64,000 nt of DNA, from NCBI RefSeq assembly GCF_000695095.2, contig NZ_CP011454.1, positions 3,658,001 through 3,722,000 on the forward strand, read 5' to 3'. The notes below the pieces were generated by a model. It made no database searches, had not been told where the DNA came from, and saw only the letters and a list, made by a program, of their open reading frames with translations. The stretch's first letter is position 1; each line of letters starts with the position of its first letter. Source of the stretch: Gemmatimonas phototrophica (lineage in GTDB: Bacteria > Gemmatimonadota > Gemmatimonadetes > Gemmatimonadales > Gemmatimonadaceae). The position numbers and the translations under genes are program-made. Below, in pieces: positions 451 to 63,821 of the stretch.

Positions 451-490
451 GCGTTTACGAACACCGTTGTTGCCGGCCGGCTTGGGTTGG

Positions 491-660
491 AACTGTATTG
501 CGAGGACTGCGCGGCTTGGGCGGACAGGACGTCCAAACGAGGACTGGCTCCGGCATGGGTAAGCGGCGTACTGCGGCGGCGAGCCCGATCACTTTTGATT
601 TTCGGATCGAGAGGCGGTGGAGAGTGTCTGTAGCCCCAGCACTATTGCCAGCGACCGGCC
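491..660. repeat. Palindromic intergenic repeat R1, copy 1 (right arm decayed)
   Basis: The left arm AACTGTATTGCGAGGACTG at 491-509 matches the left end of the copy at 2905. The match continues through the inner CGAGGACTGGCTCCG block and the GGTGGAGAGTG block near 613-625. The right arm, which should read CAGTCCTCG..ATGCAGTT, is degenerate here (a CCATGCAG remnant lies near 660). It occupies the gap between two genes that converge. The right boundary is approximate. Confidence 0.7.
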
Positions 661-2866: not shown

Positions 2867-2904
2867 TCCCTAAAATAACGCCCAAAGACGGCTGGCTCCG
2901 CTGG

Positions 2905-3116
2905 AACTGCATGACGAGGACTGCTCCGAGTGGGCGGACGGGGCGTCCAGACGAGGACTGGCTCCGGTATGAGTCGGGCGGCGTACTGAAGCCGAGAGGT
3001 TGTCCATTTTTTGATTTTGGATTTCGCGGAGGTGGAGAGTGCTCGTCGCCCTCGCCGTCGCAGTCCTCGGTCAGACGCCCTGTCCGCTGCCACGGGCCAG
3101 TCCTCGTAATGCAGTT
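2905..3116. repeat. Palindromic intergenic repeat R1, copy 2 (complete)
   Basis: A 212-bp element with long inverted arms. The left end AACTGCATGACGAGGACTG (2905-2923) pairs with the right end CAGTCCTCGTAATGCAGTT (3098-3116) with one mismatch. Further inside, GCGGACGGGGCGTC pairs with GACGCCCTGTCCGC, and a second GAGGACTG block is also mirrored. It separates two divergently arranged genes. No coding potential is convincing. It is the best-preserved copy alongside the one at 50437-50649. Confidence 0.85.
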
Positions 3117-4320: not shown

Positions 4321-5534
4321 CGGCGTTCGGGTTTCGCACCAGTCACGCCAACGGTCACGCCCGGCTGGGGTGGTTCACCACGCCACATGGTGTGGTGGAG
4401 ACGCCGGCGTTCATGCCGGTGGGCACGCATGCATCGGTGCGTGGGTTGGCGATGCAGGAAATTCGCGACGCGGGGGCGCAGATGATTCTGGCCAACGCGT
4501 ACCACCTGTATTTGCGTCCCGGCGATCAGATGGTGCGGGCCCTTGGGGGCTTGCACGCATTTTCGCGCTGGGAAGGCCCCATGCTTACCGACAGCGGCGG
4601 CTACCAGGTGTTTTCGCTGGCGCGCTACCGCAAGGTGAGTGAAGAGGGAGTGGAGTTCCGCAACAAGATCGACGGGTCGCTGCACCAGTACACCCCCGAG
4701 AAGGTGATGCAGATTGAGCGCAACATTGGCGCCGATGTCATCATGCAGCTGGACGAGCTCATTGAAGGGGGCTCGGAGCATCGGGCATCGTATCGCGCGA
4801 TGGAGCGCAGCCTGCGTTGGCTGGAGCGGTGTCGGGTGGAGTTTGAACGACTGGATCGCGACGGGCGGGCGCCAGTGAGGGGATTGACGGTGCCGGATGG
4901 CGCGCCCGCCTTGTCCACGCAGGATATGACGCGTGATGTGGTGGCCCCGCCGCAAGCGCTGTTTCCCATTGTGCAGGGAGGCACCTACGCCGACCTGCGC
5001 ACGGCGTCCATCAACGGTATTCTGCAGAGCGGTGACTGGGCCGGCATTGCGGTGGGCGGCTTATCGGTAGGTGAAGCGAAGAGTGCGATGTACGACACCT
5101 TCGACACCTGCGCGCCACTGCTCCCGCTCGACAAACCCCGCTATCTCATGGGCGTGGGCTTTCCGGACGATCTGCTCGAAGCCGTCTCGCGTGGCATGGA
5201 CCTGTTCGATTGCGTGGCGCCCACGCGCATGGGGCGGCACGGCACCGTGTTCACCTCCGACGGCAAAGTACAGATTCAAAAGAGCAGCAACCGCACCGAC
5301 CGGCGCCCGCTCACCGACGACTGCGCCTGTCCGGCGTGCATGCAATACGATCGCGCCTATCTGCGGCATCTCATGGTGACCGAAGAGCCTTTGGGACCAC
5401 GCCTGCTGGCGTTGCACAACCTGACGTTCCTCATGGCGCTGATGGCGAAGGCGCGGGAGCAGCTCGCGGCCGGGGAGTTTGGGGCGTGGAGTAGCGGGTG
5501 GCTTTCGCGTTATCGCTCGAAGGGAATGGGTTGA
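4317..5534 (+). CDS. tgt: tRNA-guanine transglycosylase (queuine/preQ1 tRNA-ribosyltransferase)
   Basis: Exchanges guanine 34 of GUN-anticodon tRNAs for preQ1 in queuosine synthesis. The 405-residue protein shows the catalytic Asp of MLTDSGGYQVF (D92), the nucleophile D298 in MDLFDCVAPTR, the substrate-recognition block VQGGTY and GGLSVGE, and the zinc site C336, C338, C341 and H367 in CACPAC and LLALHNLT. Translation starts at GTG 4317, inside the stop of the HD gene. No other queuosine gene (queA, queC-F, queG) is nearby. Slightly longer than the E. coli protein (about 375 residues), mostly through small loops. Confidence 0.97.
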   Translation: MTAFGFRTSHANGHARLGWFTTPHGVVETPAFMPVGTHASVRGLAMQEIRDAGAQMILANAYHLYLRPGDQMVRALGGLHAFSRWEGPMLTDSGGYQVFSLARYRKVSEEGVEFRNKIDGSLHQYTPEKVMQIERNIGADVIMQLDELIEGGSEHRASYRAMERSLRWLERCRVEFERLDRDGRAPVRGLTVPDGAPALSTQDMTRDVVAPPQALFPIVQGGTYADLRTASINGILQSGDWAGIAVGGLSVGEAKSAMYDTFDTCAPLLPLDKPRYLMGVGFPDDLLEAVSRGMDLFDCVAPTRMGRHGTVFTSDGKVQIQKSSNRTDRRPLTDDCACPACMQYDRAYLRHLMVTEEPLGPRLLALHNLTFLMALMAKAREQLAAGEFGAWSSGWLSRYRSKGMG

Positions 5535-5576
5535 CGGCGGTTCGGGCTAACTGCGACTGCGGTTCGGGTTTACGGC

Positions 5577-5906
5577 AACTGCGGTTCGGGTTTGGACCTG
5601 CCACTGCGGTTCTGGACTGCCACTGCAGTTTTGGACCACCACTGCAGTTGAGGAGCACCGCAGTTGGGGTCTGTGTGGAAGCGCCCGTCGGCTTTGCCGA
5701 ACGGGCGCATTCCTTTGGTGGTTGTCTCACTGCAACGGCAGTGGCGGTTACATCAACCACCAGAAGCGTGCCGCCACGGCGAAGCCGGGCGGCACTTCCG
5801 CATACACCCAAACTGCCGTGTTCCTCAACTGCAGCAGCAGTCCAGAACCGCAGTGGCTGTCCAAAGACTGCTGTGGCAGGTCCAAACCTGAACCGCAGTG
5901 GCAGTT
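5577..5906. repeat. Palindromic repeat R2, copy A (330 bp)
   Basis: Fills most of the 380-base gap between tgt and the S23 gene. It begins AACTGCGGTTCGGGTTTGG at 5577 and ends with the mirrored GGTCCAAACCTGAACCGCAG near 5880-5899. Several nested hairpins lie inside: GCGCCCGTCGGC/GCCGAACGGGCGC, TTGGTGGTTG/CAACCACCA and GTGCCGCC/GGGCGGCAC. It is in the same orientation as copy B and the inner part is roughly 90% identical by eye. A further partial GCGGTTCGGG unit repeats just before it at 5537-5575. No protein-coding role is apparent. Confidence 0.85.
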
Positions 5907-5913
5907 CGCGGCC

Positions 5914-6261
5914 TTAAAGGAGTGTCTTCTGAAGCGCGATGATCATTCGCTTGAGAGTCGCCAGATCGTCGCGAACCTGCAGGGCAATGCGCAAGTCGAT
6001 GAGCCCGCGATTCATGAGCGTCACCAAATGGCTGTCTGTTTCGTTCGCGCTCCCCAACGCGATATTGAGATAGCGTCGGAACTCCTTGGGCGTACGACGG
6101 TTCCCTTCGGCAATGTTGGCCCCAACAGATTCGGACGAAGTGCGAATTTGTCTCACGGTGTGCATCGAGAGCCCCGGGGCACAAGACATGGTTTCGCGCC
6201 ACACGATTTCCGCCACCTGTTGTGCCAATTGCCAGACTTTCAGTTTGCGGTGGTCTGTCAT
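5914..6261 (-). CDS. S23-family four-helix-bundle protein
   Basis: Small helical protein of 115 residues of the S23/TIGR02436 four-helix-bundle family, first known from open frames inside 23S rRNA intervening sequences and related to the Avd protein of diversity-generating retroelements. Hallmarks are the opening KLKVWQLAQQVAE, the central SSESVGANIAEGNRR and the FRRYLNIALGSANETDSHL helix. ATG 6261 (MTDHRKLK) is preferred; TTG 6276 would add five residues. No rRNA or reverse transcriptase is in the window. The gene sits exactly between two direct copies of palindromic repeat R2, starting about 75 bases from one and ending 8 bases from the other. Function unknown; probably nucleic-acid binding. 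Confidence 0.85.
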   Translation of the reverse strand: MTDHRKLKVWQLAQQVAEIVWRETMSCAPGLSMHTVRQIRTSSESVGANIAEGNRRTPKEFRRYLNIALGSANETDSHLVTLMNRGLIDLRIALQVRDDLATLKRMIIALQKTLL

Positions 6262-6337
6262 GGTACGAGCATACAACGGCTCGGCCTTTCCACAGTCATC
6301 GAATGTGCGGAGGTTGGGTCAGTTCAACGCGTTCTTG

Positions 6338-6667
6338 AACTGCCACCGCGGTTCGGGTATGGACCTGCCACTGCGGTTTTGGAAGACACCAGCAGTTCTG
6401 GACAGCCACTGCGGTTGAGGAGCACGGCAGTTTGGGTGGAAATGGAAGCGCCCGCCGGCTATGCCGGGCGGGCGCGTTCCCTTGGTGGTTGTCTCACTGC
6501 AACGGCAGTGGTGGTTACATCAACCACCAGAAGCGTGCCGCCACGGCGAAGCCGGGCGGCACTTTCCTAGACACCCAAACTGCCGTGTTCCTCAACTGCA
6601 GTAGCAGTCCACAACCGCAGTGGCTGTCCAAAGTCTGCAGTGGCAGGTCCAAACCCGAACCGCAGTT
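6338..6667. repeat. Palindromic repeat R2, copy B (330 bp)
   Basis: Same length and orientation as copy A. It starts AACTGCCACCGCGGTTCGGG at 6338 and ends GTCCAAACCCGAACCGCAGTT at 6667, whose reverse complement matches the left end of copy A exactly over about 30 bases. It carries the same internal hairpins, including GCGCCCGCCGGC/GCCGGGCGGGCGC near 6447-6475, where both arms have changed together relative to copy A (compensatory differences). Nothing else is seen between the S23 gene and the aquaporin. Confidence 0.87.
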
Positions 6668-6688
6668 GCAGGCAACCCTAACCGAAGT

Positions 6689-7414
6689 TCAAGTGAGCCG
6701 CGCCCATGCCAGCGCTGCCACACTAGCCCCCACCACCGGCCCCACCACCGGAATCCACGCATAGCCCCAGTCGCTCCCGCCCTTCCCGGCAATCGGGAGT
6801 AGCGCGTGCATAATGCGCGGCCCCAGATCGCGTGCGGGATTGATGGCATAGCCCGTCGGGCCGCCCAACGACAGACCAATGCCCCACACCAGACAGCCCA
6901 CCAGGAACGACCCTATGTTCGTGGCCGGCGTGGCGCCCAATACGCCGCGCGCGCCAATGGCGCCGGCCACGAGTACCAGCACCGCGGTGCCAATGATTTC
7001 CGCGAACAGATTGGGGCCCGTGGTGCGCACCGCCGGCGCGTTGCAGAAGCTGGCGAGGATGAGCCCCTGATCCTTGGTGCGGGCCCAGTGCGGCAGATAG
7101 TGCAACCAGACCAGGGTGGCCCCGCACATGGCGCCCAGCATCTGCGCCGCGACATGCGCCAGCCCCGTCGCCAGCGGATAGACGCCGGTCACCACGTTGG
7201 CAATCGACACCGCTGGATTGAGTTCGCCGGGCGCGCCGAGTGCCACGGCCACCATGCCGCCGGACATCACGGCAAAGGCCCAGCCGGCGGTGATCACAAT
7301 CAAGCCCCCACTGTGCCCCTTGGTATCGGTAAGGAGCACGTTGGCTACGACGCCGTTGCCAAGCAGCAGCAGAATCAACGTGCCGAGAAATTCACCGGTG
7401 ACGGTGGAGGGCAT
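6689..7414 (-). CDS. MIP-family aquaglyceroporin
   Basis: Six-helix channel of the major intrinsic protein family, 241 residues from the ATG at 7414 (MPSTVTGEFLGT). The frame runs on to 7459 but the family N-terminus begins at GEFLGTLILLLLGNG. Both pore half-helices carry NPA boxes, LNPAVSIAN and INPARDLGPR. The Asp after the second NPA and the inserted loop after helix 3 are typical of glycerol facilitators rather than strict water channels. No glpK or glpD is next to it, so glycerol transport is inferred from the channel alone. It stands as a single gene on the minus strand. Confidence 0.92.
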   Translation of the reverse strand: MPSTVTGEFLGTLILLLLGNGVVANVLLTDTKGHSGGLIVITAGWAFAVMSGGMVAVALGAPGELNPAVSIANVVTGVYPLATGLAHVAAQMLGAMCGATLVWLHYLPHWARTKDQGLILASFCNAPAVRTTGPNLFAEIIGTAVLVLVAGAIGARGVLGATPATNIGSFLVGCLVWGIGLSLGGPTGYAINPARDLGPRIMHALLPIAGKGGSDWGYAWIPVVGPVVGASVAALAWARLT

Positions 7415-7582: not shown

Positions 7583-8539
7583 ATGGTCAATTCCCTGCCC
7601 CGCCGGCTGGTCTCCATGCTGTTCCTGGCCGCCACCGCCGTCTCCGTGTTTGCCCCCTGGACCGCCTCTGCGCAGGTCCGCACCGCCGACCCCGCGTTGC
7701 GCGGCGTACCGCTTACAGACTTCCCACGCTTCGTCAAGCTGTCCAAGCACGTCTACGGCTACGAGGAAATCCGACAGCCGGGCTTCACGACCGTGAGTCT
7801 GATCGTACTCGGCAAGGACGGCGTGCTCATCGCCGACGCGCAGGGGTCTGCGGCGGCGACGCAAACCATGCTCGACCGCATTCGCACCATCACGCCGCTC
7901 CCCATCAAGTGGTACGTGGTAGGGAGCGATCATGGCGATCATACCGCGGGCAACCACGTGCTCCCCGGTGGGCTCACGTGGGTGGTACACCCCACGTCGC
8001 TCGCCCAGCTCAAGCGCGACTCGGCGGCGGCCACCGCCGGACGCACCGTTGTCGTGCCGCCCACAGCCATGACCGGATCAGAGCAGACCATCGACCTCGG
8101 TACCACACAGGTGGTGGTACGGTTTCTGGGTCGCGCGCACACCGGCGGTGACCTCATGGTGCATCTGCCCAAGGAGCAGATTCTTTTCATGAGCGAGGCC
8201 TTCCTCAATCGTGTCTTCCCGGCCATGCGTTCCGCCTACCCCACCGAGTGGGCCCGCACAGTGGACGCGGCGCTCGCCCTGCCGCGCGTGAAGCGCTTCG
8301 TGCCCGGCCACGGGTTCATCGAAAAGGACAAACGCTCGCGCGAAGAACTGATCACCTTCCGCGACGCCATCACCAGCGTCATTGCGGAAAGCAAGCGACT
8401 CAAGACGCTCGGCCTCACGCTCGAGGAAGCCACCAAGCGCGCCAACTGGGGCGACGTGGGCACGTGGTTCCTGGCGGACCAACAAGCGCCCATAGCCATA
8501 CGGCGAGTGTGGGCAGAGATGGACGCAGGCAACCGCTAA
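7583..8539 (+). CDS. Secreted metallo-beta-lactamase-fold hydrolase
   Basis: Exported protein of 318 residues with a signal peptide ending near APWTASAQ. The MBL fold is recognised from the strand SLIVLGKDGVLIAD, the metal loop VGSDHGDHTAG, the later GRAHTGGD His and the distal VPGHG. The first His of the usual HxHxDH motif is replaced by Ser (S-D-H-G-D-H), and the bridging Asp region reads MSEAF, so one metal site may be altered. Substrate unknown. The stop codon TAA (8537-8539) is the first base set of repeat R3 copy 1. Both neighbours converge on it or diverge from it, so it is probably monocistronic. Confidence 0.85.
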   Translation: MVNSLPRRLVSMLFLAATAVSVFAPWTASAQVRTADPALRGVPLTDFPRFVKLSKHVYGYEEIRQPGFTTVSLIVLGKDGVLIADAQGSAAATQTMLDRIRTITPLPIKWYVVGSDHGDHTAGNHVLPGGLTWVVHPTSLAQLKRDSAAATAGRTVVVPPTAMTGSEQTIDLGTTQVVVRFLGRAHTGGDLMVHLPKEQILFMSEAFLNRVFPAMRSAYPTEWARTVDAALALPRVKRFVPGHGFIEKDKRSREELITFRDAITSVIAESKRLKTLGLTLEEATKRANWGDVGTWFLADQQAPIAIRRVWAEMDAGNR

Positions 8540-8696
8540 CTGCAGTAACTGCTGTAAATGCGTTATGGGTCATGGGTTACCGGGGTACCGAGTAACTGCG
8601 GGCACTGCGGTGTCTCGCTTCTATTCCGCAGTTACTCGGTGACCTGCTGACCCATGACCCCTAACGCTCCTACGCGCTTCTACATGTCGCAGTTAC
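8538..8696. repeat. Palindromic repeat R3, copy 1
   Basis: Fills the gap between two convergent genes. GCGTTATGGGTCATGGG (8560-8576) pairs with CCCATGACCCCTAACGC (8651-8666), and an inner hairpin pairs ACCGAGTAACTGCGG with CCGCAGTTACTCGGT. The left end AACTGC lies inside the TAA stop of the metallo-hydrolase, and the right end GCAGTTA carries the TAA stop of the gene on the other strand. It resembles the element at 61302-61464. Confidence 0.8.
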
Positions 8697-9034
8697 GCGT
8701 CACTCCGCAGTAACCGCGCGACTCCTCCTGCTATTCCGCCTGACTGCAAGGCGGGCAGCAACAGCGTCATCAGCACGATGACCGTTGCTGGCACTTTGAA
8801 GTTCGCGCCGAGCATGCCGGCAAAACCGAGCACATTGCCGCCACGAATGGCCACCATGCCCAGCAGCAGTGCCGCCGCGACAGCAGCGGCACCAAAGCCA
8901 ATGCGGAAGGCGCCTTTCTGACGGAGGGCGAGCCCGATGAGCAGCCCGCCTACCGCCGCACCCCACACCCCACCCAGCGCCTGCGCGGCGACTTGCAACA
9001 CCAGCGCGGTCATGAACAACGGAGTCTTGGACAT
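8693..9034 (-). CDS. Small integral membrane protein, function unknown
   Basis: A 113-residue hydrophobic protein from ATG 9034 (MSKTPLFMTALVLQV), with four likely membrane helices: the N-terminal one, GGLLIGLALR, the Ala-rich AAAVAAALLLGMVAI and VIVLMTLLLPAL. I do not recognise a family. The start lies 11 bases after the stop of the penicillin acylase gene on the same strand, so the two are very likely cotranscribed. The frame stays open upstream inside the acylase, but that extension has no support. Its stop codon is part of the end of repeat R3. Confidence 0.65.
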   Translation of the reverse strand: MSKTPLFMTALVLQVAAQALGGVWGAAVGGLLIGLALRQKGAFRIGFGAAAVAAALLLGMVAIRGGNVLGFAGMLGANFKVPATVIVLMTLLLPALQSGGIAGGVARLLRSDA

Positions 9035-12256: not shown

Positions 12257-14915
12257 TCAATTTGAAGTCTCCAGCGAGCGTTTGGAGCCGGTATTCGACG
12301 CGGCCGGCCATGTGGATGAAGGCACGGTGCACACGTGGCTGGACGGGGCGTTTGACACCGCGTCGGCCACCCGGGTGGAAGAGCATGTGGCGACGTGCGC
12401 ATCGTGTGGGGCCATGGTGGCCGAAGCGCGTGGCCTGATGGCGGCCAGCAGCCGCATTCTGGGTGGGCTGGATACGGTGCCGGGAGGCGTGGTGCCAATG
12501 GCCGATGCGGCCCGCACCGCCATGCGCGTGGCGGCAGGATCAGCGCCCCGGTCGCGCTGGACTCAGGGGTGGACGGTTCGCGCCGCGGCCGCGCTGTTCC
12601 TCGTGGTGGGGGGCACTGTGGTGCTGCGCGATCGTGGTACGGCCCCACGACCCGCCTCGCCGCAACCCGTCGCCGCGGAGCCCATGCCCGTCGCTGCCGA
12701 TACCGCGGTAGTGGCGGCGGCGCCACCGCGTGCCGATACCCCGTCTGTGGCCGCACCCGCCACGGCTCCTAAAGCCATGGCGCGCACGGCGGAAGCCGCA
12801 GCCAATCGCGTGGCCGCAAAGGCAGCACGCCCACAAGTAGTGGCGGAAGCGGCCGATCTCGCGGCCGGAGCGGCGCCTCGGCCAACGGCGCCATCGTTGG
12901 TGGCGCAGGCAGCGCCCGCTCCAGCGCCGCCAGCGGTGGCGTCAACCGCGCCCGTCGCCGCTTTGCGTGTAGCGGCGGCGAGCGAAATGACGGCGCCGGT
13001 CGAAGCACGGCCGTTGGTTATCACCGGCTTCGTACGTGACGCCGCAACACAGCTGCCATTGGCCAACGTGGGAGTCGCGGTGATGGCCGACGCCAGCACA
13101 AACGCAAGACAAGCAGGAGCCATCACGGATGTTGGCGGAAGGTATACAATCACGCTCGCGACACGGCCAGCCGGCGGCACGGTATATCTCACCGCGCGAC
13201 TCATTGGCTATGCCATGTCGAGAGTGCAGCGGCTGGCGCCGGGCGATACGGTCAACGTGTCGTTCACAATGGCGCGTACAACCATGTCACTCAGTCAGAC
13301 GGTGGTAACGGCGGAACGATCCCGCCCCGAGCGTGCCTCCAACGCGCCGGCCTCCATTGCCACCGTAGCCGGTGCACCGCCAGCACCCATGGGACGCATC
13401 GTGGCCGTGCGTCCGATCAATAGCGGTGAAAGGGTGGCCGCCGACAACGGAAAGGCGGGCACCATTCGCCGCATGAACCGCGAGCAATACGACCGCATCG
13501 AGGACAACCCGTTCCTCGGCGTCAAGAACAACCCGCTCAGCACCTTCTCCATCGATGTGGACCGCGCTTCGTACACCAACGTGCGGCGGTTCCTCCAGGG
13601 CAGCACGCGTCCGCCCAAGGATGCCGTGCGCATTGAGGAGTTCATCAACTACTTCCCGTATCAGTTGCCCGAGCCACGCGGCAACGATCCGGTGTCCATC
13701 AGCAGTGAAGTGATTGCCGCGCCGTGGCAGCCGCAGCACAAGCTGGTGCGCGTGGCGCTGCAGGCCAAGCGTATCGAGACCGCGAACCTGCCGCCCAACA
13801 ATCTTGTGTTCCTGCTCGATGTGTCGGGCTCGATGAACGAGTGGAACAAGCTGCCACTGGTGAAGCAGGCGCTGCGCCTGCTGGTGGATCAGCTGCGGCC
13901 GCAGGATCGCGTCGCCATCGTGACCTACGCCGGTGCCGCAGGGCTCGTGCTCCCCAGCACCAGTGGCGACGAAAAGGTGCGCATACTGAGCGCGCTCGAT
14001 CGGCTGGAGGCGGGTGGCTCCACGGCCGGTGGCGCGGGCATTGACCTGGCCTATCGCACCGCCCGCGAACACTTCCTCCCCAACGGCAACAACCGCGTCA
14101 TTCTCGCCACCGACGGCGACTTCAACGTGGGGCCCAGCAGTGATTCCGAACTCGAACGCATGGTGGAGCAGCGCCGACGCGAGGGCACCTATCTCACGGT
14201 GCTCGGCTTTGGCACCGGCAACTACCAGGCGTCGAAGATGGAAAAGCTCGCCAAGGTGGGGAACGGCAACGCGGCCTACGTGGACAACATTTCGGAAGCA
14301 CGAAAGGTGCTCGTGGAAGAGATGGGCGCCACGCTGCTCACAGTGGCCAACGACGTGAAGCTGCAGGTGGAGTTCAACCCGGCCGCGGTGCAGGCGTACC
14401 GCCTTATTGGCTACGAGAACCGGTTGCTCGCCACCGAAGACTTCAACGACGACACCAAGGATGCCGGCGACATTGGCGCAGGGCATCAGGTCACCGCACT
14501 CTACGAGGTGGTGCCGGTGGGCGTGCGTGGCACGGTGAACATTCGTGGCATCGACTCGCTGCGCTATGTCACCCCCGATCGCAGCATGGGGGCACCGGCA
14601 TCAGGAGGCGCCGACGAACTGCTCTTCGTGAAACTGCGCTACAAGCGTCCGGGGCAGTCCACCAGTCAGCTCATGTCCCATGCGGTGCCGTCGCGCACGG
14701 TGCGGGCCAGTCAGGACATGCGCTTCGTGTCGGCCGTGGCGAGCTTCGGCATGCTGCTGCGCGACAGCGAGTACAAGGGAAACAGCAGCGCCGCGCAGGT
14801 CCTGGAGCAGGCCCGCGCGGCGCTGGGGGAAGACATTGGAGGCTATCGCGCCGAGTTCGTACAGCTGGTGGAACGGTGGCGCGCGCTCGGGGTTACGGCT
14901 GGCGAACGGCGGTAA
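12246..14915 (+). CDS. Membrane protein joining anti-sigma zinc finger, CarboxypepD-like and vWA domains
   Basis: An 889-residue protein starting at GTG 12246 behind a strong AAGGAGGGG site and overlapping the sigma-factor stop by 11 bases. Domain order: a zf-HC2/anti-sigma zinc finger (HVATCASC near residue 55); one membrane helix (ALFLVVGGTVVL, about residues 115-130); a long Ala/Pro-rich linker; a carboxypeptidase regulatory-like beta domain (ITGFVRDAATQLPLANVGV); then a YfbK-type von Willebrand A domain with MIDAS motif DVSGSM, the TAGG threonine and ATDGDFNVG. The inferred topology is cytosolic zinc finger and periplasmic vWA, so it could transmit envelope events to the sigma factor. The frame runs open upstream to 12147 without support. 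Confidence 0.85.
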   Translation: MLPNQFEVSSERLEPVFDAAGHVDEGTVHTWLDGAFDTASATRVEEHVATCASCGAMVAEARGLMAASSRILGGLDTVPGGVVPMADAARTAMRVAAGSAPRSRWTQGWTVRAAAALFLVVGGTVVLRDRGTAPRPASPQPVAAEPMPVAADTAVVAAAPPRADTPSVAAPATAPKAMARTAEAAANRVAAKAARPQVVAEAADLAAGAAPRPTAPSLVAQAAPAPAPPAVASTAPVAALRVAAASEMTAPVEARPLVITGFVRDAATQLPLANVGVAVMADASTNARQAGAITDVGGRYTITLATRPAGGTVYLTARLIGYAMSRVQRLAPGDTVNVSFTMARTTMSLSQTVVTAERSRPERASNAPASIATVAGAPPAPMGRIVAVRPINSGERVAADNGKAGTIRRMNREQYDRIEDNPFLGVKNNPLSTFSIDVDRASYTNVRRFLQGSTRPPKDAVRIEEFINYFPYQLPEPRGNDPVSISSEVIAAPWQPQHKLVRVALQAKRIETANLPPNNLVFLLDVSGSMNEWNKLPLVKQALRLLVDQLRPQDRVAIVTYAGAAGLVLPSTSGDEKVRILSALDRLEAGGSTAGGAGIDLAYRTAREHFLPNGNNRVILATDGDFNVGPSSDSELERMVEQRRREGTYLTVLGFGTGNYQASKMEKLAKVGNGNAAYVDNISEARKVLVEEMGATLLTVANDVKLQVEFNPAAVQAYRLIGYENRLLATEDFNDDTKDAGDIGAGHQVTALYEVVPVGVRGTVNIRGIDSLRYVTPDRSMGAPASGGADELLFVKLRYKRPGQSTSQLMSHAVPSRTVRASQDMRFVSAVASFGMLLRDSEYKGNSSAAQVLEQARAALGEDIGGYRAEFVQLVERWRALGVTAGERR

Positions 14916-15471: not shown

Positions 15472-17580
15472 TTAGCGGGTGCGGAGCGCCAGCTGGCGTT
15501 TGACCACCGCCAGGATCTGCTCCGTACTGGCCGGCTTGGGAATGAAGTTCTCCCCTGGCAGCATGGTCACGTCGGACGGGTCGTATTCGGGATCGTACCC
15601 GCTGGTGTACACCACGGGGAGTTCGGGGAACAATTGTCGCAGCTCGCGCCCCAGCGCCGTGCCGCTCATGCCGCCCGGCATGACCAGATCCGTAATGACC
15701 AGATCGAGGGTCGTCCCCTTTCGCGCACACCATTCCAGCGCCTCGGCGCCCGTGGACGCCGAATACACGACATACCCCTCACGTTCGAGCACCCGTTCCA
15801 TGAGCCGACGCACCGTAGGCTCATCTTCCACCACCAGCACCGAGGCCCGGAGCTGGTGCTCCCCCGAATCGTGACTGAGCGCCTCGCCGCCGGCGACGAG
15901 ATCCGCTGGCAGTGGTTCGTTGGAGAGCGGGATCCAGACGTCCATGGTGGTCCCGCGGCCCAAGATGGATGTGGCACGCAGCGTCCCTTTATGCTGCTGC
16001 ACAATGCCGTACGCGGTCGCGAGACCGAGCCCCGTTCCCTGTCCCGGCGGCTTGGTGGTAAAGAATGGCTCGAACAACCGTGGCATGTGCTCGTCGGCAA
16101 TGCCGGTGCCGTTGTCTCGCACACTGAGCACCGCGTAACGACCGGCGGGCAAGTCAGGCGCCGTACTGGTCTGTTCACGCAGGGCGGTGGCTATCACAAT
16201 GCTGCCCCCCTGGGGCAGTGCATCGCGCGCGTTGAGCACCAGATTCAGCAGCACCTGCTCCACCATGCCGCTGTCGGCCGAGACCACCAGCGGGCCCGGG
16301 TGACACGACACGGAAAGCGTGTGCGATGTGGGAACCACACGCTTGAGCAGTTTGGCGTGCGTGCGCACCAGCGTATTGAGGTCGAGCACCTGCGATTGCA
16401 TGGCCTGCTGACGGCTGAAGACCAGCAGCTGTCGGGTGAGTCGCGCGGCGCGCTGTACCGATGTTTCCACATCGGTGATGAGTTCGCGGGCAACGCGGGG
16501 CATCTCGCGCACCAATCGCAACTCCTCCAGTTGCATCATGACGGCGGCGAGCACGTTGTTGAAGTCGTGCGCCACGCCGCCGGCCAGCTGGCCAATGGCT
16601 TCCATTTTCTGGCTTTGGCGGAGCCGTTGCTCGCTGGTCTTTAGCGCCTCCACCACGCGGGCATTCTCAAGGGCTGTTTCCTGCTGCTCACGCAGCGCGG
16701 TGGCCAGCACGAGCGACGTAATGGCGAGCACGCCCAAAAACACCTGGAGCACAATGAGGGAGCCGGCCGGGGTATTACCCCCAAACGCCAACGGGTGATC
16801 GGCCATGAGCATTGTCATGCCCACTGCGGCGATCTCCAGTACCGACAGCATGGCGCCAATCTGCCCGAACCGCAGCGTGGCCCAGAGCACCGGGACCACC
16901 ATCATGTAGGGGCCCATATTCACTTCACCAACCAGCCCTCGCTCCAGGTACGACCCAACCGATGCCGCGAGAATCACCACCAGCATGAGGAGCGTTTCCA
17001 GCGCCCACCCCACCGGGGTCCGCCCCGGCGCACGCGAGGGCGGCCGGTCGAGCACGAGGACCGTAAGCGGGGTGATGACGACAAAGGCAATCACGTCGCC
17101 AACCCACCACACGGCCGCTGATTCGAGGAACGGCGCGCCACTGAAAGAGCGGGCGATGAATGCAGACGGAATGCTGGCGAGTGCGGTGGCACCACCGGTT
17201 GCGGCGAGGAGCACAAAAACATCGCGCAGGCGGGCGAAGCGAAGCGGCAAGGAGGCAAAGCGTCGCAGCAGCGCCTCGGCAAGCAGCATTTCGCCCAGAC
17301 TCACCCCGAGGTAGGCAATGGCCGGAGGGGTCGCGAAGCCCTGCAACAGATTGGAGACCGTATCGATGGCGATGTAGCCACCAATGATCAGTGGCCGGTG
17401 GCTGCGCGGGAGCGAAATGAGCGCGGCGAGGGCGAGACCAACGGGCGGCCAAGCGGGGGCGAGCGGACCGCCAAAGCGGATGAAGGAGAGGGAGAGCGCG
17501 TGCGCCAGAAACGTCGCGAGGGCAAAGCCCAGCAGGCGACGAGTGTGGAGCGGCGACGGCAGTACCCAACCTGCTGGCAT
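15472..17580 (-). CDS. MASE1-type membrane hybrid histidine kinase
   Basis: A 702-residue sensor kinase from ATG 17580 (MPAGWVLPSPLHTRR). The first 300 residues are eight or so membrane helices of the MASE1 sensory domain (WPPVGLALAALISLP and WWVGDVIAFVVITPL are typical). Next come a HisKA dimerisation helix with the phospho-acceptor His338 in VAHDFNNVLAAV, a HATPase domain (NLVLNARDAL, DNGTGI, GTGLGLATAYG), and a C-terminal receiver domain (VVEDEPTVRR, phospho-Asp in VITDLVMPGG, conserved Lys in FIPKPAS). No separate response regulator or output gene is adjacent. The frame remains open upstream into the decayed transporter gene. A decayed copy of its first 26 codons is at 20802-20879. Confidence 0.9.
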   Translation of the reverse strand: MPAGWVLPSPLHTRRLLGFALATFLAHALSLSFIRFGGPLAPAWPPVGLALAALISLPRSHRPLIIGGYIAIDTVSNLLQGFATPPAIAYLGVSLGEMLLAEALLRRFASLPLRFARLRDVFVLLAATGGATALASIPSAFIARSFSGAPFLESAAVWWVGDVIAFVVITPLTVLVLDRPPSRAPGRTPVGWALETLLMLVVILAASVGSYLERGLVGEVNMGPYMMVVPVLWATLRFGQIGAMLSVLEIAAVGMTMLMADHPLAFGGNTPAGSLIVLQVFLGVLAITSLVLATALREQQETALENARVVEALKTSEQRLRQSQKMEAIGQLAGGVAHDFNNVLAAVMMQLEELRLVREMPRVARELITDVETSVQRAARLTRQLLVFSRQQAMQSQVLDLNTLVRTHAKLLKRVVPTSHTLSVSCHPGPLVVSADSGMVEQVLLNLVLNARDALPQGGSIVIATALREQTSTAPDLPAGRYAVLSVRDNGTGIADEHMPRLFEPFFTTKPPGQGTGLGLATAYGIVQQHKGTLRATSILGRGTTMDVWIPLSNEPLPADLVAGGEALSHDSGEHQLRASVLVVEDEPTVRRLMERVLEREGYVVYSASTGAEALEWCARKGTTLDLVITDLVMPGGMSGTALGRELRQLFPELPVVYTSGYDPEYDPSDVTMLPGENFIPKPASTEQILAVVKRQLALRTR

Positions 17581-17597
17581 AAACTCCGATTTACAAT

Positions 17598-18034
17598 TCA
17601 GGCAGGGACATGGGGCTCCGGACGACGTCGCATGACGCGTCCCACGAATGTACCGCCCAACAGCGCGACCGCATACCCGTAGGGGGCGAAGGCGGCGGTG
17701 ACCCCGCAGGCTATCGCGAGGGCAAACGCGGTCGGGGTGTGCCATTGATCCCGGACCAGGAGCAGCACCGTGATGGCTTCGACGAGGAGCAGCGCGCCGA
17801 GGATGGGGCCGGGCACCAGTCGTTGGAACGCGGCGGGGTCTCCCACGAGGAAGAATCCGGCCGCGACCAATGCCATTCCGTAGATCACGGCACTGCCGCC
17901 GGTGCGGGCGCCAAAGAAGTGATGGCCCACCACGCCACCGGAGCCGTGGCAGACTGGCAGCCCGCCCAGAGGGGCTGCGATCAGATTCATGAGGCCGTAG
18001 GTATTGCCGATCCGGCGGACCGTGAGTGGTTCCA
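17598..18034 (-). pseudogene. Decayed C-terminal fragment of a molybdate/sulfate transporter
   Basis: About 145 codons matching the C-terminal 40% of the intact transporter at 20897-22042, from PLTVRRIGNTYGL through CHGSGGVVGHHFFGARTGGS to the GGTFVGRVMRR end. Homology stops abruptly near 18034; the open frame continues to 18116 with unrelated sequence that cannot supply the missing helices. About 100 bases further lies the left end of the IS3 element. The fragment is visibly diverged from the intact copy, so the duplication is not recent. It precedes the histidine kinase on the same strand. Confidence 0.8.
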
Positions 18035-20896: not shown

Positions 20897-22042
20897 TCAA
20901 CTGGGGACAGATGACTCCATCTGACGTCGCATGACACGGCCTACGAACGCACCTCCCAATAAGGCGACGGCATACCCGTAAGGAGCGAAGGCGGCAGTCA
21001 GGCCGCAGGCGATCGAGAGAGCAAACGCCGCCGGGGTGCGCCATTGATCCCGGACCAAAAGGAGCACGGTGAGGGCCTCCACGATTAGGAGCGCCCCAAG
21101 GATAGGGCCGGGCACCAGGCGCTGGAAGGCGCTGGGCGCTCCCACGAGAAAGAGCCCCGCCAACACCAGCGCCCCTCCGTAAATCACGGCGCTGCCGCCG
21201 GTGCGGGCGCCAAAGAAGTAGTGAGCAGCAATACCGCCCGACCCGTGACAGACCGGTAGCCCACCCAACGGGGCGGCGAGGAGATTCATGAGGCCGTAGG
21301 TGTTTCCAATGCGGCTTACCGTGAGGGGGGCTCGATCAGGAAACAAGTCAGCCACTACCTGTTTGGTGGCGAGCACAGAATTGCCTAGGGAGAGCGCAAT
21401 TTGTGGGAGCGCGAGCAGCAGGGCGGCGCGTCCAAATTCATTGGGGGTTGGCCAGCGGGTAGGCAGCGAAGGGAGCTGGAAGCCCCAAAGTTCGGGGAAG
21501 TCTTGGGGCCAGTTGAAGGCGGCCCAAGTGAGCCCGAGTGCCAGAACGGCAATGCCCGCAGGTAGGCGTCGGTTTCCGCGCAAAGCGACAATAAGGCCAA
21601 TGGCGGCGGCGGCGAGCAGCCATCCGCTGGTGCCTCCTCCCGGAATGAAGCGAGTGAGGGCTAGGTTGAGCAGCTGAAGCCCCAGTCCCACCTGAATACC
21701 GCGCACCACCGCTTTGGGAACGGTGCGGGCAATCCATTCTAGGGCGCCGGAATTGGCCAGCGCGAGCATGGTGAAGCCGACGATGAGCCCCCCCGCCGCG
21801 AGGAGCGCGGGCGCAATTTTCCCGGCAATGGCAATCGCAGCCATGGCCTTGAGCGGCTGCACCGGCATAGGGAGCCGGTAAATGAGCCCCGAACCGATCT
21901 GAAGTAACCCGAAGGCCACAAACGCGGCGGGGGCGTCCATGCCTGTGGCCATCACCACCCCGACCAAAAGGGGGAGATCGGTGCCGAGGTCACCGAACGC
22001 ACCGGCGAGTTCGTTACGGGAGAAGGAGAGGGGTGTGGGCAT
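20897..22042 (-). CDS. Putative molybdate/sulfate transporter (MOT1/SulP-like)
   Basis: A 381-residue integral membrane protein of the MFS_MOT1 type (molybdate transporter 1, SulP-related), with ten or so helices. Diagnostic segments are AGAFGDLGTDLPLLVGVVMATG at the N-terminus, PVQPLKAMAAIAIAG and the second repeat PVCHGSGGIAAHYFFGARTGG. The family moves molybdate or sulfate across the cytoplasmic membrane. It is GC-rich although its neighbours on both sides are AT-rich. A diverged, truncated copy lies at 17598-18034. No modABC or molybdopterin gene is near, so substrate is inferred from family alone. Confidence 0.82.
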   Translation of the reverse strand: MPTPLSFSRNELAGAFGDLGTDLPLLVGVVMATGMDAPAAFVAFGLLQIGSGLIYRLPMPVQPLKAMAAIAIAGKIAPALLAAGGLIVGFTMLALANSGALEWIARTVPKAVVRGIQVGLGLQLLNLALTRFIPGGGTSGWLLAAAAIGLIVALRGNRRLPAGIAVLALGLTWAAFNWPQDFPELWGFQLPSLPTRWPTPNEFGRAALLLALPQIALSLGNSVLATKQVVADLFPDRAPLTVSRIGNTYGLMNLLAAPLGGLPVCHGSGGIAAHYFFGARTGGSAVIYGGALVLAGLFLVGAPSAFQRLVPGPILGALLIVEALTVLLLVRDQWRTPAAFALSIACGLTAAFAPYGYAVALLGGAFVGRVMRRQMESSVPS

Positions 22043-46581: not shown

Positions 46582-46602
46582 TGGAACAACCAGGCCGACG
46601 CC

Positions 46603-46785
46603 TTAGCTCGCGGAGTTGAGCGTGTTGGTCGTGCGCTGGAAGATGTTCGAGATCGAATTGCGGAAGCCCTGAATGACGGCGATGAGCGCCACCGTGATCA
46701 CGCCAAGGAGCAGCGCGTATTCGGCGAGCGAGGCGCCTTCTTCTTCGGCAACAAAACGACGGAGGGTCTGATTGAATGCGGACAT
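46603..46785 (-). CDS. flp: Flp-family type IVb pilin (flp-2)
   Basis: A 60-residue prepilin. Leader of 17 residues ending EEEG, mature start ASLAEYALLLGVITVAL with the Glu-Tyr pair at mature positions 5-6, a single helix, then FRNSISNIFQRTTNTLNSAS. It is nearly identical to flp-1 over its whole mature part. A GGAG ribosome-binding site sits just upstream. Expected major pilus subunit, secreted and assembled by the Tad machine encoded downstream. Confidence 0.95.
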   Translation of the reverse strand: MSAFNQTLRRFVAEEEGASLAEYALLLGVITVALIAVIQGFRNSISNIFQRTTNTLNSAS

Positions 46786-46849
46786 GATGACTCCAGTGTG
46801 TGGTTAATGATGAGAGAGATAGCGCAGTGCTGCCGATTGCTGCGGGTGC

Positions 46850-47032
46850 TTACGACGCCGAGTTCAGCGTATTGGTGGTGCGCTCGAAAATATTCGAAAT
46901 GGAGTTGCGGAACCCCTGGATAACGGCGATCAGCGCCACCGTGATCACGCCAAGCAACAGGGCGTATTCGGCGAGCGACGCACCTTCTTCTTCACGGACA
47001 AACCGGCGAAGCGTGTTCTTGAGGCTGGACAT
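46850..47032 (-). CDS. flp: Flp-family type IVb pilin (flp-1)
   Basis: A 60-residue prepilin and the first gene of the Tad locus. It differs from flp-2 at a handful of positions, mostly in the leader (MSSLKNTLRRFVREEEG), while the mature chain is almost unchanged (Glu for Gln near the C-terminus). AGGAG precedes the ATG. The 64-base spacer to flp-2 resembles the spacer before flp-1 only weakly. As the promoter-proximal gene it is likely the most highly expressed pilin. Confidence 0.95.
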   Translation of the reverse strand: MSSLKNTLRRFVREEEGASLAEYALLLGVITVALIAVIQGFRNSISNIFERTTNTLNSAS

Positions 47033-50436: not shown

Positions 50437-50649
50437 AACTGCATTCCGAGGACTGCTCCAAACATACGGACAGGGCGTCTGAACGAGGACTGCGACGGTG
50501 TAGGCGAAACGCACTCTCCACCTCCTCAAGATCTCAAACAAATAAAAAAGAACTGCCCCGCCGTAGCAGTGCGCCGCCTGCCCATACCGGAGCCAGTCCT
50601 CGTTTGGACGCCCCGTCAGACTACACGGAGCAGTCCTCGTCATGCAGTT
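50437..50649. repeat. Palindromic intergenic repeat R1, copy 3 (complete)
   Basis: A 213-bp element. The left end AACTGCATTCCGAGGACTG pairs with the right end CAGTCCTCGTCATGCAGTT (50631-50649). Inner arms GGACAGGGCGTCTGAACGAG and CTCGTTTGGACGCCCCGTC also pair. The middle carries CTCCACCTCC, the inverse of the GGTGGAGAG block of copy 2, so it is inserted in the opposite orientation. The right end directly abuts the TAG stop (50650-50652) of the oxidoreductase gene. Confidence 0.87.
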
Positions 50650-52257
50650 CTACCCAACTATTTGTACCACCCGATCGGCCGCCTGCCCCCCGTGCCACTG
50701 CGCTTCCTCAAAAAGACTCAAGTTGCTGAGATCGGCGTGGGCGACGAACAGCCGCTCAGCTGGAGCCCACTGCTGGAGACGGGCCACACGATCCAGTGTG
50801 CCCGGGACGGGACGCGCCATGGCGTGCCCCCAGCGCATCACGTCGACGCGAAGCAGTCGTTGCGCGATGTCGGGGTGCGCGCGCTGCAGGTCGGCAACAA
50901 TGGTGTCGCGCCAATGGGTCCAAGGTTGCGCCTGCAGCCAGCGGCGTGCCTCCACCGCAGGTCGATCGACCACGGCATAATACCAGGTCCAAATGTGCTC
51001 GCGCGACGACGTGCCCAACTGCTGATGCTGGGCGTTCACATACCCCAGCGACGGGCTGCCATAAATGACATTGTCCCACGCGAGCGGTGCACCACGCTCC
51101 TGGGGTAACCCATCCAATACCAGATTGGCTACCACCCACGGGGCGTACTCGAGCGTGATCGGCAGCGTGACGCCGGGACAGACCCGCGGCAACAAAAACA
51201 GCGGCGCGCTCCAGATCACGGCGTCAGCAATCACCCGCTCGCGCGGTGTATCCACCACCCACTGTGTGCCGCGCCGCGCAATGTGCACGACCGGAGCATC
51301 AGTCCGCAGTCGTTCCTGTCCACGGGCATCACGAGTACGCGACAGCCGCCGCGTGAGCTCGCGGGCAATGAAGTCGTTCCCTTCGGGCCACGTGAGCGGC
51401 CCCTCGTCTTCACTTTCGCGACCGGCAAAATAGTGCACCGCCGCCCACGCGCTGGCTTGCGACAGTGAGGCGCCGTAGTCGTCGCGGGTGCCGTACTCCA
51501 CCCACCAGCGGAGCGCCGGTGCGGTAAACCGCTGCGAGATCATCCACTCGCGCGCGGTCATGGTATCAAGCGCCAACACGTCACGCGCCCGCGCAGCCGG
51601 CGACCCACCACCACGTAGCGCGCTACGTCGCGCGTCATGCCCCATGAACGACGGCACCTGGAACATGCCCGTCTCGCGCCACCCGCTTATGACATCATGA
51701 AAGCGGGCAAACTGCTCGCGCTCCTGCACTGTGGCGGCGTCAAGCGGATCGAGCCCCTCATGCCAACGCCCGTGCTGCCAAATGCGCTCCTGCGGCGAGT
51801 GACAGAGCACCCGCTCGTCCCACTCGCCATTGGCATGCAACACTCCCAACTCACGAAAGAGCTGCCGCACATGCACCGCGTTGTGCGACGGCACCGGTAC
51901 GTAGTGCGCACCCCACGGCGCCCGTTGCCCCTGCAACCCGGGATATGATGCTGAGCGGGCGTTGCCTCCGGTGCGCGACGACAGCTCGAGCAGTGTCCAG
52001 TCGGTATGTCCCAAGGCGTCGAGGCGCCAGCCTGCACTCAACCCGCCCATGCCGCCGCCGGCAATGACCACACTGACCCGACGCTCGGGACGATTGGATG
52101 CCAACGCCAATGCCCCGTCGCGCAACGCGTGCCCGGCGCGACTGTCGTCGTCGGCAAAGCCGCCGCCAATCACCCGCCCCTTCTGCGCCAATCCCAACAG
52201 CGCGGGCGCTGCAACAAGTCCGCTCAGGGTGCGCAGCGCCTCACGCCGACTCGTCAT
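50650..52257 (-). CDS. Tat-signal FAD-dependent oxidoreductase (amine-oxidase fold)
   Basis: A 535-residue flavoprotein. It starts with a twin-arginine-type signal (TSRREALRTLSGLVAAPALLGL), so it is probably exported folded with FAD. The dinucleotide motif VIAGGGMGGLSAGWRL near residue 65 is followed by ELSSRTGGNARS, as in the amine oxidase/phytoene desaturase superfamily. Later segments WPEGNDFIARELTRRL and VIWSAPLFLLPRV are also typical. It is the last gene of the eight-gene polyamine/SPFH operon, 9 bases after the aminopropyltransferase. An amine or polyamine substrate is inferred from context only. Repeat R1 copy 3 abuts its stop. Confidence 0.83.
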   Translation of the reverse strand: MTSRREALRTLSGLVAAPALLGLAQKGRVIGGGFADDDSRAGHALRDGALALASNRPERRVSVVIAGGGMGGLSAGWRLDALGHTDWTLLELSSRTGGNARSASYPGLQGQRAPWGAHYVPVPSHNAVHVRQLFRELGVLHANGEWDERVLCHSPQERIWQHGRWHEGLDPLDAATVQEREQFARFHDVISGWRETGMFQVPSFMGHDARRSALRGGGSPAARARDVLALDTMTAREWMISQRFTAPALRWWVEYGTRDDYGASLSQASAWAAVHYFAGRESEDEGPLTWPEGNDFIARELTRRLSRTRDARGQERLRTDAPVVHIARRGTQWVVDTPRERVIADAVIWSAPLFLLPRVCPGVTLPITLEYAPWVVANLVLDGLPQERGAPLAWDNVIYGSPSLGYVNAQHQQLGTSSREHIWTWYYAVVDRPAVEARRWLQAQPWTHWRDTIVADLQRAHPDIAQRLLRVDVMRWGHAMARPVPGTLDRVARLQQWAPAERLFVAHADLSNLSLFEEAQWHGGQAADRVVQIVG

Positions 52258-61301: not shown

Positions 61302-61464
61302 AACTGCGTAAAGGCGTTATGGGTCATGGGTTAGCGGTAACGGCGCAACTACGTAAAGCGTCATGGGTTATGGGTTAGCGGGTTACCGAGTTACCGCGGA
61401 ACTGCAGTGGCAGTGCCCGCAGTTACCCGGTGACCTGATAACCCATAACCCATAACGCCGTTAC
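61302..61464. repeat. Palindromic repeat R3, copy 2
   Basis: Fills the gap between the membrane protein start and the esterase stop. AAGGCGTTATGGGTCATGGG near 61311-61330 is mirrored by CCCATAACCCATAACGCCGT (61442-61461). An inner pair GTTACCGAGTTACCGCGG / CCGCAGTTACCCGGT matches the inner hairpin of copy 1. This copy carries an extra GTCATGGGTTATGGG unit on the left arm. The right end GTTA contains the TAA stop of the esterase gene (61461-61463). Confidence 0.8.
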
Positions 61465-63389: not shown

Positions 63390-63821
63390 TTACGACAGGT
63401 GCTTGGACACGAGCTTCGTCATGTCGAACATGCTGACCGACGTCTTGCCGCCGAACACCTTCTTGAGCTTGTCGTCGGCGTTGATCTGGCGCTTGTTCTT
63501 CTGGTCCTGCAGGCCGTTCTTCTTGATGTAGGCCCAGAGCTTCTTCACGACTTCCGTGCGCGGGAGACCCTTTTCGCCAACGATGGCGGCCAGGTCGGCG
63601 CTCGGGGTGAGGGGCTTCATGAACGCGGCGTTCGGCGCGCGCTTGGCGGCCTTCTTGGCCGGCGCCTTCTTGGCCGGAGCGGCCTTCTTGGCCGGAGCCG
63701 CCTTCTTGGCGGGGGCCTTCTTTGCAGCCGCCTTCTTGGCCGGAGCCGCCTTCTTGGCGGGAGCCTTCTTCGCAGCCTTCTTGGGTGCAGCCTTCTTTGC
63801 GGACTTCTTCGCAGCGGCCAT
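63390..63821 (-). CDS. SWIB/MDM2-domain protein with lysine/alanine-rich histone-like arm
   Basis: A 143-residue protein from ATG 63821, behind an AGGAG ribosome-binding site. The first 60 residues are repeats of KKA, APAKK and PAKKA type, as in histone H1 tails and in bacterial HU-like DNA-compacting proteins. They lead to a SWIB domain (MKPLTPSADLAAIVGEKG, LWAYIKKNGLQDQ, INADDKLKKVFGG, SMFDMTKLVSKHL), the fold of eukaryotic SWI/SNF BAF60b and of chlamydial SWIB proteins. Likely DNA-binding and nucleoid-associated; the mode of action is unknown. Its own terminator makes it a single-gene unit. Confidence 0.9.
   Translation of the reverse strand: MAAAKKSAKKAAPKKAAKKAPAKKAAPAKKAAAKKAPAKKAAPAKKAAPAKKAPAKKAAKRAPNAAFMKPLTPSADLAAIVGEKGLPRTEVVKKLWAYIKKNGLQDQKNKRQINADDKLKKVFGGKTSVSMFDMTKLVSKHLS

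Follow-up and report, generated by a model that had tools for sequence, protein, structure and literature searches.

Since the 1990s, S23 proteins have been familiar only as enigmatic open reading frames (ORFs) in rRNA inserts, and no catalytic residues or activity are known for the family. The heptameric repeats of bacteria, among them those of Calothrix, Nostoc and Xanthomonas, are known as orphan repeats of obscure origin. The closest described systems to the element discussed here are the intervening sequences (IVSs) of 23S rRNA in Leptospira, Coxiella and Brucella, in which an S23-family ORF also lies within a long-stem element. These IVSs have stem-forming ends, are excised by RNase III and are suspected of horizontal transfer (PMC4990558). 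The stem of the Coxiella IVS measures 28 bp (PMC4990558), the distribution of IVSs is patchy, and horizontal transfer has been proposed for them. REP/BIME sequences with their RAYT genes are similar in that a gene is flanked by a palindromic repeat and many gene-less copies lie between genes, although the gene there encodes a Y1 transposase and here S23. The Avd protein of diversity-generating retroelements shares the four-helix-bundle fold, yet those elements include a reverse transcriptase. MITEs are likewise short palindromic intergenic repeats present in tens of copies, whereas the S23 elements have no known matching transposase ends, and their arms are specific to each S23.

The window, a stretch of 64,000 nucleotides from the genome of Gemmatimonas phototrophica (a single contig of 4.72 Mb), contains an S23 gene that lies between the tgt and aquaporin genes and not within a 23S rRNA gene (Table 1). 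As in a 23S rRNA IVS, this ORF is enclosed by terminal inverted repeats. These are supplied by two units, A and B, of ~335 bp each, which lie in direct orientation at a spacing of 767 and are 88% identical. Each unit is itself composed of inverted halves with 75-79% complementarity, both are strand-symmetric, and the two pair with each other across the S23 gene through their outer arms (86%); for the arm motif left of unit A, this across-gene pairing is also recovered by gapped alignment. Unit A consists of a long outer stem with a pair of GC-rich side hairpins and a GGTGGTTG/CAACCACC hairpin at its centre; as DNA, its predicted folding energy is -137.9 kcal/mol (z = -18 relative to dinucleotide-shuffled sequences). 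Transcribed in the sense direction, the A-S23-B block is predicted to be able to form one long hairpin with the ORF in its apical part. An Rfam scan of the whole 64-kb window gave zero matches. With a TTG start the ORF spans 5914-6276 (120 amino acids), and the ATG of MTDHRK lies at ~6261.

Table 1. Positions of the S23 element and of solo hairpins in the window
Feature	Position	Strand	Basis or remark
Copy of the GAGGACTG family	488..596		Absent at the syntenic site in G160, G163
Solo hairpin, GAGGACTG-motif family	2902..3086		Absent at the syntenic site in G160, G163
Extra outer arm-motif copies (CTGCGGTTCGGG) left of unit A	5533..5571		Pair with 6673-6699; inverted repeats I5/I11, 85-86%
Hairpin unit A, palindromic	5572..5908		11 full-length copies in the genome
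S23 / PF05635 four-helix-bundle gene, centre of the element	5914..6276	-	Profile match, fold match, dN/dS
Hairpin unit B, direct and, being palindromic, inverted copy of A	6339..6672		88% identity to A
Outer arm remnant right of unit B	6673..6699		I5, arms 5545-5607 / 6637-6699
Solo hairpin, L033 family (S23 copy at genome position 3778395)	8554..8667		Absent at the syntenic site in G160, G163, G017
Copy of the GAGGACTG family, complete hairpin	50437..50655		Pairs I6, I7, I10
Second solo hairpin, L033 family	61358..61464		Genome search with single arms

A first-pass annotation of this stretch had described two direct repeats of the same length, each with inverted arms, around an S23-type gene, and both the identity of the units and the profile match (PF05635, E=1e-22) bear this out. 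Its gaps of 8 and ~75 bases between gene and repeats lie close to the measured 5 bp on the side of A and 62-77 bp on the side of B. It had also taken compensated differences between the arms as a sign of conserved structure. Such changes do occur, as RNAalifold on the 11 genomic copies of the unit (alignment A3) returned 115 pairs, 21 of them with at least one double-sided compensated change. Some of these stem, however, from copies with an inverted inner segment, whose two side hairpins stand the other way round (L007, L008, L009, L012 and L014), and the count is thus weaker evidence than supposed and not an independent proof of selected structure. The annotation was, moreover, too narrow in its picture of the locus, in that the pairing across the gene, the strand symmetry and the generality of the pattern escaped it.

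The S23 protein of the window matches PF05635, the 23S rRNA-intervening sequence protein family, with 80.8 bits (cut-off 33.8), and TIGR02436 with E=3e-22. Its AlphaFold model consists of four helices (pLDDT 94.4), for which Foldseek found 2gsc (TM 0.83-0.85) and also 2rld. The former is Xcc0516, the crystallized S23 homologue of X. campestris, which forms a pentameric ring in the crystal (as cited in PMC4990558). The model also superposes on the Avd of a diversity-generating retroelement reverse transcriptase complex (8ub7) with a TM of 0.77-0.78; the structurally aligned sequences are 8% identical. Most S23 domains are basic, with a median pI of 8.46. Between the S23 gene of the window genome and its orthologues in G160 or G163, dN/dS is 0.05 with dS near saturation; judged by these substitution rates, purifying selection is keeping S23 while solo hairpins turn over between sister species.

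Within the window genome, the A/B unit occurs in 11 full-length copies and a few fragments, of which A and B alone lie next to an S23 gene. Four S23 genes are present in this genome, each accompanied by long inverted repeats of a different family, which span the gene at three of the four. At C1:3778395 (L033), S23 lies between 57-nt arms of 96% complementarity, and at C1:1231390 (L034), between 124-nt arms of 83%. The remaining gene, at C1:1684458 (L031), has a 136-nt palindrome directly downstream and no arm pair across it. Genome searches with single arms gave 57 half-hits (~30 hairpins) for the L033 family and 65 half-hits (~35-40 loci) for the L034 family, mostly as paired plus and minus arms without S23 between them; the family sizes are estimates from such paired half-hits. 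By these counts, three families each contain one S23-bearing copy and 9 to ~40 copies without the gene. Arms of the L033 and L034 families are adjacent or nested at C1:902935/903012, 907489/907567, 4155644/4155740 and other places, as if one family inserts near the other. The GAGGACTG hairpin family has no obvious partner among the four S23 genes, and an S23-bearing copy of it was not seen. The complete window genome returned zero matches to either the reverse transcriptase profile RVT_1 (PF00078) or the Y1 transposase profile Y1_Tnp (PF01797), a result that speaks against any reliance on a retroelement or a transposase of the REP type. By eye, no target-site duplication is evident in the flanks of 22 L033-family hairpins.

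In a comparison with relatives, the A-S23-B block occupies the tgt/aquaporin junction in the window genome, G160, G163 and G168 (there cut by the contig end), while G052 and G158 have a short gap only and G065, G157 and G152 have unrelated hairpins. The solo hairpins at 488, 2902 and 8554 are missing at three of three syntenic sites of both G160 and G163, two of which are occupied by another hairpin family instead. Related species thus differ in whether this one site holds the S23 block, and solos turn over between sister species, a pattern drawn from one S23 site and three solo sites that could include losses. S23 runs against tgt in the window genome and with tgt in G160 and G163, as expected from inversion between two palindromic units. 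Unit A is more similar to units of its own genome (80-90% identity) than to those that G160 and G163 carry at the orthologous site (80-82%); other A/B copies of the window genome are only 73-80% identical to copies in those two species. The site in G160 (C4, L344) that corresponds to window 8525-8712 has a CTGCCGTCT-family hairpin interrupted by a transposase-like gene, judged by eye to be IS5-like (13299-14809), and one intergenic region of the same locus (2390-2900) contains several tandem copies of that hairpin family.

The association of S23 with such arms extends well beyond this genome. PF05635 genes occur in 81 of 150 genomes of the phylum. An arm score, obtained by aligning the upstream flank of a gene with the reverse complement of its downstream flank, was computed for 40 S23 loci of the phylum with 4-kb flanks; it reached at least 50 at 24 of the 40 S23 genes vs nine of 400 placements at other positions of these loci. 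When 84,980 species genomes were scanned with profile A2, 80 S23 loci from more than 10 phyla emerged, where a score of at least 35 was found at 48 of 72 S23 loci vs 10 of 689 placements (~1.5%). This cross-phylum sample, in which loci from MAGs are numerous, was drawn by the motif S[VAI]P[AL]N[IM]AEG. Under a stricter control restricted to genes bordered on either side by 60 bp or more of intergenic sequence, arms were present at 83 of 114 S23 genes vs one of 62 control genes (Fisher p 2e-22). Chance association of S23 and arms is excluded by the placement and gene controls. In the non-redundant set of 173 S23 genes, 130 (75%) score at least 35 and 146 (84%) at least 30, which leaves about a quarter without arms at the former threshold and 16% at the latter.

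In Gammaproteobacteria, 18 of 27 S23 loci reach a score of 35; the closest relative of Xcc0516 found (L308, 65%) has arms below the threshold. All six S23 genes examined on cyanobacterial plasmids are armed, one of them between nrdB and nrdA. On the Anabaena sp. 90 plasmid pANA02 (L267), an armed S23 lies between cas6 and cas4 of a CRISPR operon of type I-D, a setting in which a four-helix-bundle gene could pass for part of the CRISPR system. No S23 match was obtained in phage records, and none of the rRNA signature words searched for was present in the S23 loci checked. The loci tested here differ from IVSs in lying outside rRNA genes, and they differ further in arms that are mostly tandem 7-mers and in solo copies dispersed genome-wide; neither 7-mers nor solo copies were found described for IVSs in the literature examined.

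These numbers also decide how the remaining proposals of the first-pass annotation are to be read. Its view that repeats and S23 gene belong together agrees with all four S23 genes of the genome and 75% of the 173 elsewhere, and a non-autonomous element with its own small protein fits one S23-bearing copy accompanied by solo copies. It had held that the link would be chance if most repeat copies lacked S23 neighbours and S23 genes lacked repeats. The first half applies, as nine of the 11 full-length A/B units have no S23 beside them, and the second does not, so that the link stands. A particular 330-bp unit as the ligand of S23 is not supported, as the arms differ with every S23.

The arms themselves share a composition. 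Across 146 arms, identity at lags of 7, 14 and 21 is 0.54, 0.49 and 0.43, vs 0.26-0.32 at other lags, and the best period is 7 in 92 arms and 8 in 16; control arms have no period-7 peak. Examples of the repeated word are GTGCAGA, GGGTGTA, AGGATTG, GGCAGTC and TTGGCTA. The arms of Gemmatimonadota, including those of the A/B family, are often longer and less regular than in other phyla. The strand that runs inward is G-rich (G exceeds C in 135 arms and falls below it in 8), and because the elements are inverted repeats, this polarity belongs to the element and not to gene direction. A G3 quadruplex motif was found in only 30 of the 146 arms, by which the G-quadruplex as a common arm feature is ruled out. 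Mismatches within arms are of the G-U type in 215 cases and of the A-C type in 240 (p 0.26), such that there is no wobble excess and nothing points to sense RNA as the selected form. The suggestion in the first-pass annotation of a structured RNA as such is therefore not supported.

The word repeated in the arms varies with the protein. Over the elements with arms, S23 identity and arm similarity are correlated (Mantel r 0.32, with a maximum of 0.09 in 500 permutations), and mean arm similarity is 0.57 for proteins of at least 0.7 identity vs ~0.15 for distant pairs. The relationship persists among pairs from different phyla only, where arm similarity is 0.43 at an S23 identity of at least 0.65 (n=14) vs 0.16 below 0.35. 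A Chitinophaga MAG and a betaproteobacterial MAG, for example, have S23 proteins of 82% identity and the word AGGATTG in common; errors of MAG binning could touch such single pairs and hardly the overall trend. Where one genome holds several S23 genes, their arms are unrelated (mean similarity 0.10-0.14). Given the coupling across phyla and the unrelated arms within a genome, the word belongs to the S23 lineage; as judged from these alignments, it is the sequence of the S23 protein, not the host, that it follows. That S23 binds its arms is read from this co-variation, which could also reflect mere linkage of gene and arms.

Solo repeats of the same kind are found in other genomes. In Bosea (G174), GGCAGTC flanks S23, and about ten further sites carry it in convergent pairs separated by 24-100 bp. 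In Phormidium (G173), the pattern of GGGAGTC/GGCAGTC dimers greatly exceeds a reversed-pattern control (124+62 vs 14+17). The gammaproteobacterium G543 carries a frameshifted S23 with GGGAATC arms between accB-like and accC-like sequence, and its genome holds 29 dispersed GGGAATC dimers, several in convergent pairs. Dispersed convergent tandem 7-mers are thus present in Bosea (GGCAGTC) and G543 (GGGAATC), while the A/B family of the window, with its longer irregular period, fits this class only loosely. In the genomes examined, arm families linked to S23 also occur as many S23-less solo hairpins.

Repeats with this unit length have been described without a link to a gene (PMC4692102, PMC4679880), as have elements in Geobacter (PMC2700814). 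The GGGAATC repeat of Xanthomonas was treated as an orphan, G-quadruplex-forming repeat with 70 convergent pairs in X. campestris (PMC4692102). The Xanthomonas GGGAATC, Nostoc GGGGA(C/T)T and Calothrix heptanucleotides have the same unit length as S23 arms, and the Xanthomonas repeats are also paired convergently as in S23 elements, the S23 pseudogene of G543 having GGGAATC arms. The orphan heptamers were read as G-quadruplexes, whereas the G3 motif is confined to the minority of S23 arms given above. No literature linking S23 to heptameric repeats was found in a search that covered mostly non-subscription journals, and an earlier description is possible.

Together, these observations show that in many phyla long inverted arms, mostly of inward-G-rich tandem 7-mers, enclose S23 genes, and a widespread class of mobile hairpin elements probably has S23 as its partner. 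The S23 element would be a mobile element of intergenic DNA, and the S23-bearing IVSs of 23S rRNA would form a minority of such elements, those located in rRNA genes. The S23 protein, a pentameric ring of four-helix bundles in homologue crystals, may bind the hairpin into which its own arms fold, either as single-stranded DNA or as RNA, in a manner dependent on the 7-nt repeat. It would then promote the copying or insertion of elements with matching arms, whether its own or solos, by means of host replication or repair enzymes. Hairpin binding with copying by the host is favoured by the lack of RVT_1 and Y1_Tnp matches, the lack of wobble excess, the basic character of S23 and the superposition on Xcc0516 and Avd. 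Taken as a whole, the statement that these are IVS-like mobile hairpin elements, on whose cognate arms S23 would act and which host enzymes would copy, is one towards which we lean on balance; the association of S23 with its arms is held with much higher confidence. A bolder version is offered tentatively, as possible and not as probable. Here, a widespread mobile class with no recognized transposase, recombinase or reverse transcriptase would exist, in which a non-enzymatic protein of the S23/Avd fold recognizes hairpins of tandem heptamers in a 7-nt register, itself determines the specificity, and drives its own spread and that of solos.

Several other explanations have to be weighed against this one. 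Strong purifying selection on S23 would suit a host post-transcriptional regulator for which heptamer hairpins in UTRs and in its own mRNA are conserved, non-mobile regulatory sites, and coupling of arms and protein would be expected of it too. Against it, solos of the window are absent at all three syntenic sites of the sister species, with other hairpins at two; the presence or absence of the whole S23 block among species, the similar S23-arm pairs in different phyla and the missing G-U excess also speak against regulation, which is for these reasons considered unlikely. Mobility through RNA, in which RNase III excises the hairpin and a reverse transcriptase acting in trans reinserts it with S23 in an Avd-like role, draws on the superposition with Avd (8ub7, TM 0.77-0.78) and on the cutting of IVS hairpins by RNase III (PMC4990558). 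With no RVT_1 match in the complete window genome and no wobble excess on the sense strand, it is improbable.

S23 might instead be a passenger, tolerating or captured by heptamer arrays and palindromes that arise from polymerase slippage and template switching. Many bacteria indeed contain an excess of heptameric repeats, for which slippage has been suggested as the source (as cited in PMC4679880), but comparable arms are rare at control genes (1/62), the arm word tracks the protein across phyla and not the host, and the inward G-rich polarity holds in 135 of 143 arms, all of which render this reading highly improbable. The least probable of all is that the hairpins are ordinary MITEs, non-autonomous IS copies moved by a DDE transposase with S23 as cargo. 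Their copy numbers, intergenic position and solo and loaded forms resemble those of MITEs; against this, the arms differ for each S23 and are mostly tandem 7-mers. Neither a target-site duplication, sought by eye in the 22 L033-family hairpins, nor a Y1 transposase was seen, the latter in a search of the window genome confined to the Y1 transposase and reverse transcriptase profiles.

Returning to the preferred reading of S23 as partner of a mobile hairpin element, its interest lies in joining S23 and the heptameric repeats, since the protein is usually found between such repeats and its sequence predicts the word. S23 thereby gains a testable candidate ligand, a possible origin is suggested for the repeats, and a great many natural S23 protein/hairpin pairs become available for study. 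S23 elements may account for orphan heptamers such as Xanthomonas GGGAATC and those of Nostoc. If the mechanism holds, this would be a kind of mobile element without a recognized mobilizing enzyme, and if the bolder version were true, the orphan heptamers of bacteria would be accounted for and the 23S rRNA IVS would be a special case.

The window contains other repeats as well. Two 300-bp stretches (17605-17904 and 20904-21203) are 79% identical and overlap the ends of unrelated ORFs, one sensor kinase-like (15472-17745) and the other transporter-like (20897-22042). Two direct 184-bp copies with 80% identity lie at 46602-47032, beside ORFs that resemble a Flp pilin and a prepilin peptidase. 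At 63627-63771, tandem repeats of 15-18 bp resemble the coding sequence of a lysine/alanine-rich histone H1-like tail.
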